Shown in pieces: positions 26,233 through 64,000 of a DNA stretch of 64,000 nt; the first letter of the stretch is position 1; each line of letters opens with the position of its first letter. The notes beneath the pieces are model-generated. The model saw only the letters and a program-made list of their open reading frames with translations, searched no databases and had not been told where the DNA came from. Location of the stretch: positions 2,750,001 through 2,814,000 of the forward strand of contig OY282368.1 of the NCBI GenBank assembly GCA_958295725.1. The letters are read 5' to 3'. The DNA comes from an uncultured Alphaproteobacteria bacterium (lineage in GTDB: Bacteria; Pseudomonadota; Alphaproteobacteria; UBA2966). A program made the translations under genes and the position numbers.

Positions 26233-26453
26233 GAGAGGCCCCGTGGAGAGGCCCCGTGGAGAGGCCCCGTGGAGAGGCCCCGTGGAGAGGCCCCGTGGAG
26301 AGGCCCCGTGGAGAGGCCCCGTGGAGAGGCCCCGTGGAGAGGCCCCGTGGAGAGGCCCCGTGGAGAGGCCCCGTGGAGAGGCCCCGTGGAGAGGCCCCGT
26401 GGAGAGGCCCCGTGGAGAGGCCCCGTGGAGAGGCCCCGTGGAGAGGCCCCGTG
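26233..26453. repeat. Tandem array of 17 exact copies of a 13-bp unit
   Basis: The unit GAGAGGCCCCGTG is repeated 17 times without a mismatch (221 bp). It begins 25 bp upstream of the chosen autotransporter start, so it lies in that gene's 5' untranslated or promoter region. Thirteen is not a multiple of three, and copy changes would alter spacing rather than the protein. Perfect identity suggests recent expansion and ongoing copy-number change. Confidence 0.95.
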
Positions 26454-26533
26454 GAGTTCACTTCCTACCCTACCACGAACGACGCCGTCAAGTCAAAATT
26501 CGTCGCGAACTGGGTTGACGCTCCGAGAATATG

Positions 26534-59500: not shown

Positions 59501-60070
59501 TCAATCGCGTGCGCCCGCGCCCGCCTTCAGCAGCGCCTCGACGACGGCGTGGGCGTCATCGCCGAACGCCGCGAAATCGAGCGGCGTCAGGCCGCCTTCA
59601 TCGCGCGCCCCGGGGTCCGCGCCCGCCTGAAGCAGCGCTTCGACGATGGCGAGGTTGCCGGGCCTGAAGGCCGCCGCGTGAAGCGGCGTCGTGCCGTCCA
59701 CGGCGCGGGCGTTCGGGTCGGCGCCCGCCTCGAGCAACGTCTCGACGACGGCGCGGGTGTGGTAGGTCGCCGCGTGAAGCGGCGCATGGCCGTCCTCGTC
59801 GCGCGCGTTCGGGTCGGCGCCCGCGTCGAGCAGGGCCGCGACGACATCGGAGGTGTTGTTGGCCGCCGCCGCGTGAAGCGGCGTTCCCGCGCGTTCGTGG
59901 CGCCCGTTCGGATCCGCGCCCGCCCCCAGCAGCGCCCCGATCTCGGCGGCGGTTCCCTCGGCCGCGACGCGCCAGAGTTCCGCCGTCGCGTCCGTTCGCG
60001 CGCAACCCGCCTGCGCCGCCCAGACGAACAAGACCAGGGCCGGGACGGCGAGCTTGCGGCGGACGGTCAT
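59501..60070 (-). CDS. Exported ankyrin-repeat protein
   Basis: A 189-residue protein with an N-terminal signal sequence ending near AAQAGCARTD; the Cys could be lipidated, but the box is weak. Five ankyrin repeats follow, with the consensus TPLHAAA and ALLDAGADPNARD. Ankyrin repeats bind proteins; no partner is evident. Its periplasmic or lipoprotein location is inferred. Downstream it nearly abuts the regulator gene. Confidence 0.85.
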   Translation of the reverse strand: MTVRRKLAVPALVLFVWAAQAGCARTDATAELWRVAAEGTAAEIGALLGAGADPNGRHERAGTPLHAAAANNTSDVVAALLDAGADPNARDEDGHAPLHAATYHTRAVVETLLEAGADPNARAVDGTTPLHAAAFRPGNLAIVEALLQAGADPGARDEGGLTPLDFAAFGDDAHAVVEALLKAGAGARD

Positions 60071-60860: not shown

Positions 60861-62231
60861 TCAGGCGGCCGCGGATTCCGAGCGGACCGCCGCCGCCACG
60901 TCCGCGCGCGCGGCCTCGGCTTCCCTGTTGTCGTGGAAGTCGAGACCGAGCACCTCGATCTCGCGCGGGATGCGCAGCAGCCCCCGCGAGTGGAGGAGCT
61001 TGGCGACGACCCAGGCCGGAACGAAGCCGAGGACCCAGAACATGATGACCGCGCCCGCGAACTGCCCGAGCGGATTGATCGCGGCGAAGCCCTCGTAGGG
61101 CGACGAGGGGTGCCCCCAGAGCACGAAACCGGCGATCACGAGGCCGATGAAGCCGGCGTAGCCGTGGACCGCCACGGCGCCGACCGCGTCGTCGACCTTG
61201 AACCTCCGTTCGACCCAGTAGTGGATCTTGTACATGAGGAAGGTGCCGACGCCGGCCACGATCATGGCCTGGATCGGGTGGTAGAGGTCGTTGCCGGCGG
61301 ACGCCGTGATGATGCCGGCGAGGCCGCCCGAGTAGGTCCAGAAGGCATCGCCCTTCGACGCCATGTAGCCGACCAGCATCCCCCCGGCCAGCGACATCAG
61401 GAAGTTCACCGTGATGGCGCTGAGCGTCGTCGGGGTGAGGTAGATGGTGGTCGCGGTCTGGGTGGCGCCGGTGATCTGGCCGTCGATGAAGGCGGTCGTC
61501 GCCACCGGCACGTTGCAGGCGACGTAGAACCCCCAGAAGCCCGTGTAGATCAGGAACAGCCCGATGCAGACCAGCCAGGTGTTGTGCGGCAGGATGTCTC
61601 GCGGCGTTCCGTCGGCGGCGAACTTGCCGAGGCGCGGCCCGAGCACGACGAGAACGCCGAGGGCGGTGCCGCCGGCGATCGCGTGGATCACGCCGGACGC
61701 GTAGGCGTCGTGGTACCCGAGGAGCTCGACCATCCAGCCGTTGAAGTGCCAGCCCCAGGCGGCGTCGATCGACCACGTGACGGAGCCGATCATGATGGCG
61801 AAGATCCAGAACGCGAAGTGGCGAATCCGTTCGATCACGGCGCCCGAGACGATGGAGGCGGCCGTCCATGCGAACAGCAGGAACGCCGCCCAGAAGACGC
61901 CGCTGATGCGGTCGTCGAGGCGGGGGCCCATGCTCTCCCCCCACGGCGTGTAGGCCGCCGCGACGGCCGGGTCGGGATGGCCGAGCGGGCCCGTGATGCC
62001 CGGCCCGCCGGCGAACGCCCAGTAGATCCACCAGCCGAAGAAGAACCACGTGATCGTGACCAAGGGGATCAGCATGGAGTTCTTCATCAGGGTGTGCATG
62101 TGGTTCCGGCGCCGGCTCGCTCCCACCTCGTACATGCAGAAGCCGACGTGGATCAGGAACATCAGCGCGACCGTGATCCAGTAGTAGAATTCGGTGAATA
62201 CCGTCGTTATCGCGGCGACATCTGTATCCAT
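60861..62231 (-). CDS. amtB: Ammonium transporter AmtB
   Basis: A 456-residue inner-membrane ammonium channel with 11 spans. FCMYEVGASRRRNHMHTLMKN is the first signature. The twin histidines lining the pore appear in GVIHAIAGGTALG and VGAVAVHGYAGFIG. AWGWHFNGWMVELLGYHDAYASG is the conserved region before the first His. The ATG at 62231 is correct for the family; the frame runs further upstream only because of the satellite. No GlnK gene is adjacent. Confidence 0.93.
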   Translation of the reverse strand: MDTDVAAITTVFTEFYYWITVALMFLIHVGFCMYEVGASRRRNHMHTLMKNSMLIPLVTITWFFFGWWIYWAFAGGPGITGPLGHPDPAVAAAYTPWGESMGPRLDDRISGVFWAAFLLFAWTAASIVSGAVIERIRHFAFWIFAIMIGSVTWSIDAAWGWHFNGWMVELLGYHDAYASGVIHAIAGGTALGVLVVLGPRLGKFAADGTPRDILPHNTWLVCIGLFLIYTGFWGFYVACNVPVATTAFIDGQITGATQTATTIYLTPTTLSAITVNFLMSLAGGMLVGYMASKGDAFWTYSGGLAGIITASAGNDLYHPIQAMIVAGVGTFLMYKIHYWVERRFKVDDAVGAVAVHGYAGFIGLVIAGFVLWGHPSSPYEGFAAINPLGQFAGAVIMFWVLGFVPAWVVAKLLHSRGLLRIPREIEVLGLDFHDNREAEAARADVAAAVRSESAAA

Positions 62232-62455: not shown

Positions 62456-63812
62456 GCCGCGAGCGCCTCCCGGCATTGCCGACAACCGCACAATCCGCAC
62501 ACCCTCCGGGGGGACAGGCGCGGCGCGGCGGTCCGCACAATCCGCACACCCTTTGGGGGCCAGGCGCGGCGCGGCGATCCGCACAATCCGCACACCCTTT
62601 GGGGGATAGGCGCGGCGCGGCGGTCCGCACAATCCGCACACCCTTTGGGGGATAGGCGCGGCGCGGCGGTCCGCACAATCCGCACACCCTTCGGGGGAGG
62701 GGCGCGGCGCGGTGATCCGCACAATCCGCACACCCTTCGGAGGACGGGCGCGGCGCGGCGACCCGCACAATCCGCACACCCTTCGGGGGAGGGGCGCGGC
62801 GCGGCGGTCCGCACGATCCGCACACCCTTTGGGGGACAGGCGCGGCGTGGCGGTTCGCACGATCCGCACACCCTCCGAGGGCAGGCGCGGCGCAGCGGTC
62901 CGCACAATCCGCACACTCTTCGAGGAATGGACGCGGCGCGGCGATCCGCACAATCCGCACAACCTTCGGGGGAGAGGCGCGGCGCGGCGGTTCGCACAAT
63001 CCGCACACCCTTCAGGGAGAGGCGCGGCACGGCGATCCGCACAATCCGCACACCCTTCAGGGGGCAGGCGCGGCACGGCGATCCGCACAATCCGCACACC
63101 CTTTGGGGGGCAGGCGCGGCGCGGCGATCCGCACAATCCGCACACCCTTCGGGGGGCAGGCGCGGCGCGGCGATCCGCACGATCCGCACACCCTCCGGGG
63201 GGCAGGCGCGGCGCGGCGACCCGCACAATCCGCACACCCTTCAGGGACAGGCGCGGCGCGGCGACCCGCACAATCCGCACACCCTTTGGGGGGCAGGCGC
63301 GGCGTGGCGATCCGCACAATCCGCACACCCTTCGGGGGAGAGGCGCGGCATGGCGATCCGCACAATCCGCACACCCTTCGGAGGACGGGCACGGTGCGGC
63401 GGTCCGCACAATCCGCACACTCTTCGGGGAATGGACGCGGCGCGGCGATCCGCACAATCCGCACACCCTCCGGGGGGCAGGCGCGGCGCGGCGGTCCGCA
63501 CGATCCGTACACCCTTCGAAGGACAGGCGCGGCGCGGCGATCCGCACGATCCGCACACCCTTCGGAGGACGGGCACGGTGCGGCGGTTCGCACAATCCGC
63601 ACACCCTCCGGGGAGACAGGCACGGCGCGGCGATCCGCACAATCCGCACACCCTTCGGGGGGCAGGCGCGGCGCGGCGGTTCGCACAATCCGCACACCCT
63701 CCGGGGCCGCGAGCGCCTCCCGGCATTGCCGGCAACCGCACGATCCGCACACCCTTCGGGGGACAGGCGCGGCGCGACGGTCCGCACAATCCGCACACCC
63801 TTCGGAGGACAG
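62456..63812. repeat. Satellite of 29 units of about 47 bp, with degenerate CRISPR-repeat-like blocks at its borders
   Basis: Each unit contains CCGCACAATCCGCACACC, then CTTCGGGG and a GCGCGGCGCGGCG run. I count 29 units with point differences (for example CAATCC/CGATCC, TTTG/TTCG/TCCG). All positions of the unit are conserved, so there are no unique spacers. The same 36-bp border block occurs at 62456-62491 and 63706-63741, differing at one base. No stop codon is visible on either strand over long stretches, so the predicted proteins here are artefacts of base composition. No gene is supported. Confidence 0.9.
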
Positions 63813-63844
63813 GCGCGGTGCGGCGGATCCGACGGCTCGGTCCG

Positions 63845-64000
63845 GTGCTCAACGCCTTTCGGCATCACTGACAGTCGCACCCGCGGCGGCGGCGAGGGAG
63901 AGGCTGTCTCGCCCGGTGTGCTCAACGCCTTTCGGCATCACTGACAGTCGCACATCGAAAGCGGCGCGCCGCCGCGCGAATCGCGCTGCGTGCTCAACGC
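63845..64000. CRISPR. CRISPR array, first repeats only, cut by the window edge
   Basis: A 36-bp repeat occurs exactly twice (63845-63880 and 63918-63953) and its first 11 bases recur at 63990-64000. Spacers are 37 and 36 bp and unrelated to each other. The repeat starts GTGCTCAACGCC and ends AGTCGCAC, so its ends are complementary (GTGC/GCAC), and it holds a GCC-TTTC-GGC stem loop. No cas gene is in the window, so the type cannot be told. If read from the minus strand, the stem loop lies near the 3' end of the repeat and this is the leader-distal end. Confidence 0.85.

Follow-up and report, generated by a model that had tools for sequence, protein, structure and literature searches.

A dispersed minisatellite adjoining the trailer end of a type I-B CRISPR array, with a probable degenerate CRISPR repeat at its border

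Among the tandem repeats of bacteria, the mycobacterial interspersed repetitive units (MIRU) have been described as minisatellites (PMC3635867). The repeat family considered here resembles MIRU and other bacterial VNTRs in having tandem units of some tens of base pairs, in occupying many chromosomal sites and in differing in its units from one array to another, as judged by comparing layouts within one genome; the same tandem unit was found at several loci, as is characteristic of a dispersed minisatellite. One of its arrays lies directly beside a CRISPR array, and the junction between the two is the subject of this analysis.

The window, that is, the whole 64,000-nt stretch of DNA analysed (C1:2750001-2814000), belongs to a 3.67-Mb genome in three contigs. 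At its right-hand end, a 46-bp satellite array lies between an ammonium transporter gene and the CRISPR array, and is intergenic according to the gene model. The parts of the junction follow one another in the order border, satellite, border, satellite, intact CRISPR repeat:

60861-62231, minus strand: ammonium transporter gene (Pfam PF00909, E 4.6e-53), flanking the satellite on the side opposite the CRISPR array
62456-62491, plus strand: border block 1, a probable degenerate terminal CRISPR repeat (23/36 identity, 33/36 purine/pyrimidine agreement; rank 1 of 456,310 positions)
62486-63831, plus strand: 46-bp minisatellite of about 29 units, consensus CCGCACAATCCGCACACCCTTCGGGGGACAGGCGCGGCGCGGCGAT (from Tandem Repeats Finder, the unit listing and six other chromosomal arrays)
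63681-63735, plus strand: 55-nt long satellite unit (unit spacing 55 rather than 46), which holds most of border block 2
63706-63741, plus strand: border block 2, a 35/36 copy of border block 1 inside the satellite array
63845-63880, minus strand (the strand of the cas genes): trailer-most intact CRISPR repeat
63918-63953, minus strand: second intact CRISPR repeat
63990-64000, minus strand: third intact CRISPR repeat, truncated where the window ends

Border block 1 is written in the orientation GTGCTC...CGCAC, and its last six nucleotides coincide with CCGCAC, a half-site of which the satellite core carries two (YCGCACRATCCGCACACC). Satellite is present on both sides of border block 2, and an alignment of the two ends of the array extends well past the border. 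On balance, the junction is probably a place at which two unrelated things have met: a degenerate repeat from the CRISPR trailer and an independent, dispersed minisatellite.

The CRISPR array extends from 63845 to C1:2816826 and consists of 42 identical 36-nt repeats and 41 unique spacers. It is followed on the minus strand by cas2, a cas4/cas1 fusion, cas5, cas7, cas8, cas3 and cas6, a set of the I-MYXAN (type I-B) kind, and an AT-rich leader lies between the array and the cas genes, at the end of the array opposite the satellite. As both the cas genes and the leader are at the far end, the satellite sits at the trailer end of the array, and, as the repeats adjoining it are all intact, no decay of the array is visible there. 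An Rfam search detected no known RNAs in the arrays or the cas locus. A second CRISPR locus (C1:57-66 kb), of type III-B, encodes Cmr5, a RAMP protein, a Csm6-like HEPN protein and Cas1, and has variant repeats within its array; the repeat of this array (C1:57-60 kb) is unrelated to the I-MYXAN repeat, and a search of the genome with the satellite yielded no match around it (C1:37-77 kb).

The satellite itself is also found away from CRISPR arrays. Arrays of the 46-bp unit are present at C1 33.5, 860, 951, 1950, 2283 and 2527 kb, and the genome-wide search returned 126 matches at E <= 1. The satellite core GCACAATCCGCACACC also recurs with other periods, of 49 bp at 1827 kb and of 115-125 bp at about nine further sites. 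A simple finder detected no CRISPR arrays in the examined flanks of the other 46-bp and variant-period arrays. The sequence-only reading of this stretch had proposed that the CRISPR array had been converted into satellite at its trailing end, with a 46-bp unit derived from the repeat by shortening and re-amplification. The trailer-end position, the CGCAC held in common and the alternation of borders and satellite before the first intact repeat would suit such a conversion, which is nevertheless highly improbable: the 46-bp unit makes up six other arrays, and the core occurs in variant-period arrays and as single copies, with no CRISPR in the flanks examined, while the repeats beside the satellite are all identical. 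Moreover, the units of the window align with the CRISPR repeat at background level, with a mean score of 12.1 as against 13.1 for tiles of the genome; when transitions are taken into account, the mean is 14.7 versus 13.4, and the maximum 21 versus 23. Several of the other arrays, finally, form part of a larger cassette, conserved between sites, that the window array does not have; for this reason the window array does not look ancestral.

The units of the window array are nearest one another (26.4 of 27), and a single other array (L032) is a real neighbor. This proximity, together with the lack of the left and right parts of the cassette, gives the window array the appearance of a derived copy. 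Outside this genome, a search of 40 relatives, of which two belong to the same genus, yielded no 46-bp unit, although draft assemblies may lose such arrays; one weak 24-nt match was obtained in a more distant genome. Among 84,980 species genomes, a 22-nt pattern representing the core had only seven hits, single and scattered, and viral contigs had none, so that there are no outside arrays for comparison. From its sequence, the satellite is thus apparently a dispersed, intergenic minisatellite that is private to this genome and not derived from CRISPR, its intergenic position being that of the window array, which was checked against the gene model.

The cassette was recognized at five further 46-bp arrays (L027-L031), as a left part, the array and a right part. 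The left part (about 110-120 bp) contains a conserved promoter-like box (TTGACTCG...GTTCCYATATTGTTCC) directed out of the cassette, and the right part (about 280-300 bp) an AT-rich stretch (ATATGTTGTA...GATATATGGTAT); similarity ends sharply outside these two parts. Six arrays with a 115-bp period also carry a box of this kind, behind which lies a gene resembling that of a terminase small subunit:

C1 455, 1090, 1203, 1488, 1785 and 2428 kb: near-identical solo terminase-small-subunit-like genes (L034-L039), each behind the box and beside a 115-bp array

The product of this gene matches Pfam Sf6_terminase (E 4.5e-6) and PHROG 4044 (E 8.7e-39). The copies are 88-100% alike, and in five of the six the frame runs on into a long, variable acidic stretch; in L034, similarity ends at residue 123. 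A related terminase-like gene (63%) is present in a genome of the same genus, where it has no tandem array. The GTTC-N7-GTTC box that precedes several arrays was considered as an alphaproteobacterial LexA box, an assignment that was rejected because close matches to the promoter-like box in the genome occur almost only at satellite cassettes.

The two border blocks are a different matter from the ordinary units. As the sequence-only reading had noted, they align end to end with the CRISPR repeat at 63845; the alignment is ungapped over 36 nt, with 23 identical positions for border block 1 and 22 for border block 2. Ten of the 13 mismatches of border block 1 are transitions, the three transversions being at nucleotides 3, 4 and 6, so that purine/pyrimidine agreement reaches 33/36 overall and 30/30 over nucleotides 7-36. 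The statistics presented here rest on about 230 kb of genome sequence, or 456,310 positions on both strands. By plain identity, the likeness is modest, good rather than compelling: the best match on the other strand of the window has 22/36, shuffling the satellite region under a first-order Markov model gave 23 or more identities in 10 of 2000 trials, and, with the border as a query and plain scoring with gaps, the score of the CRISPR repeat was equaled by 243 of 11,316 tiles of the genome. When transitions are counted half, the borders rank first and second of the 456,310 positions, ahead of a genuine ectopic repeat from the cas operon; the combined transition-aware score was reached by none of 2000 local shuffles, and, under gapped transition-aware scoring with the border as query, the CRISPR repeat scores 36, with one tile in 11,316 as good. 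It was this transition-aware scan that led to the revision of a reading by which the likeness, as judged from plain identity, was due to chance.

The transition-aware test is post hoc, having been picked after the mismatches had been seen, and nucleotides 31-36 of the border also belong to the satellite core and are therefore not independent of it. For these two reasons, descent from a CRISPR repeat is regarded as probable and no more than that: the likeliest source of the border is a terminal repeat that degenerated on the trailer side of the type I-B (MYXAN) array, in line with the likeness to decayed repeats that the earlier reading had seen in the borders. Any such repeat is no longer a working one. 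Identity to the intact repeat is 10/14 in the 5' part, 12/16 in the stem-loop and 2/8 in the handle; neither the Cas6 stem-loop (5/6 stem pairs) nor the 8-nt handle is kept, a loss that excludes a working repeat and that a dead relic can well have undergone. The repeat-spacer spacing of the array (70-74 bp) is not found either, border block 2 being 139 bp from the first intact repeat and the two borders 1250 bp apart. Predicted RNA folds of the satellite units and borders are no better than those of shuffled sequence, and the flank to the left of border block 1 is a weak candidate for a further decayed unit (63 of 2000 shuffles as good). Intermediate forms between border and repeat, which had been suggested as something to look for, were not encountered in the relatives examined.

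The border might instead have nothing to do with CRISPR and be the variable half of a 55-nt satellite unit or a general flank of the satellite core, its likeness to the repeat arising by chance with the help of a GC-rich GCC...GGC pattern and the shared CGCAC end. Flanks of the core at two sites away from CRISPR (L044 and L040) also have the sequence GCGCCGTCCCGGCRTGGCGATYCGCAC, and plain gapped scoring against the border gives them 25 and 19, respectively, and the CRISPR repeat 21; another array (L033) likewise alternates units of 49 and 55 nt, and GC-rich tiles of the genome often match the border well. This account has a substantial chance of being right, while falling short of probable. 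It leaves aside an ungapped alignment over exactly 36 nt whose purine/pyrimidine agreement of 33/36 is unmatched in the positions scanned; the flank alignments at L044 and L040 require three gaps, whereas the alignment with the CRISPR repeat requires none, and the 55-nt unit of L033 is unlike the border, shuffles doing as well in 327 of 2000 cases. The L040 site was noted in another respect: a 4-kb stretch of the main contig with its 125-bp-period array (C1:767.5-771.5 kb) is 98.6% identical to one at C2:49-53.5 kb (L041), on a 93-kb contig.

The borders differ from each other at a single position of 36 and from the CRISPR repeat at 13-14, which makes it probable that one relic was copied within the satellite, rather than that two repeats decayed separately. 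Under the favored reading, a degenerate repeat meeting an independent satellite, we infer the following course of events. The type I-B (MYXAN) array ends at 63845 on its trailer side, and an old, degenerate terminal repeat, now the border block, would have lain beyond its last intact repeat. A copy of the satellite would have arrived at, or been inserted into, the trailer beside this relic, whose CCGCAC end coincides with a half-site of the satellite. Slippage or unequal recombination, with the common CCGCAC as an aid, would then have enlarged the satellite array, and this growth would have copied the relic together with neighboring units, placing border block 2 inside the 55-nt long unit.

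The order of the parts would also fit a different course, in which the CRISPR array acquired a piece of the dispersed satellite as a spacer, after which the satellite expanded in spacer positions between ageing trailer repeats (R'-satellite-R'-satellite-R). The satellite is native to the genome, and the repeat end and the satellite core both have CCGCAC. We regard this as unlikely, because the near-identity of the R' pair argues for copying with the satellite and not for two old repeats, and because no current spacer matches the satellite loci examined with six mismatches or fewer. A combined account, by which a satellite-derived spacer expanded in the ageing trailer and copied the decayed repeat in its unit, so that CRISPR both hosted and fed the satellite, while the arrays of this private family may cluster binding sites for the terminase-small-subunit-like proteins encoded beside some of them, would be similarly improbable.

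Degenerate repeats of another kind are present within the cas operon itself. Between cas6 and cas3 (C1 about 2824980-2825069), a spacer-like stretch of 45 nt has an ectopic CRISPR repeat on either side. One of them keeps the stem-loop (15/16) and the handle (8/8), and not the 5' part; the ectopic repeat psiR1 of the cas operon has 6/6 stem pairs and 8/8 handle positions. The pattern of decay in the border is the reverse of this, as a relic without function may show. By analogy, the ectopic pair looks like the creA of a CreTA module (PMC8501985), and C1:2824980-2825285 (L009:12980-13285), outside the window, is a candidate for such a CRISPR-regulated toxin-antitoxin module at a bacterial I-B/MYXAN locus. 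Just downstream of cas6 is a sequence to which nucleotides 1-5, 7-9 and 11 of the spacer-like stretch correspond; the stretch itself excepted, no other site on either strand within 20 kb matches at nine of the ten seed positions. Published CreTA modules match at all ten (PMC8501985), and about one such 9/10 match is expected by chance within those 20 kb, by our estimate, so that this resemblance serves as a lead only.

Other repeats were noted in passing. At 26233-26456, the window contains a 13-bp unit, GAGAGGCCCCGTG, in 17 perfect copies; its reverse complement family, TTCACGGGGCCTC, is likewise found after satellite cores at L031 and L046. At 59613-59940 there is a 96-bp tandem repeat (2.7 copies, 77% matches) that is possibly coding and ankyrin-like in appearance.

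The junction suggests that an unrelated genomic satellite can overrun a CRISPR trailer and, in the process, capture a dead repeat and copy it. Tandem repeats beside a CRISPR array should, therefore, not be read as derivatives of it without a genome-wide check. A dispersed family that is absent from the sampled relatives, with a terminase-small-subunit-like gene in six places, also provides a rare chance to study the origin and spread of a satellite within one genome.

In its position past the last intact repeat, its full repeat length and its changes, mainly transitions, the border is like a degenerate terminal CRISPR repeat; it is unlike one in being changed at 13 of 36 positions, in having 103 bp, most of it satellite, between it and the last intact repeat and in having been copied once with the satellite. 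The cassette recalls MITE/REPIN-like elements in its left (about 110-120 bp) and right (280-300 bp) parts, conserved across sites and ending in sharp breaks; it differs from them in having no demonstrated target-site duplication or transposase, and the window array corresponds to the tandem part alone. In contrast to MIRU, several of the arrays described here form part of a repeated cassette that includes a conserved promoter-like box, and a terminase-small-subunit-like gene accompanies six variant-period copies.
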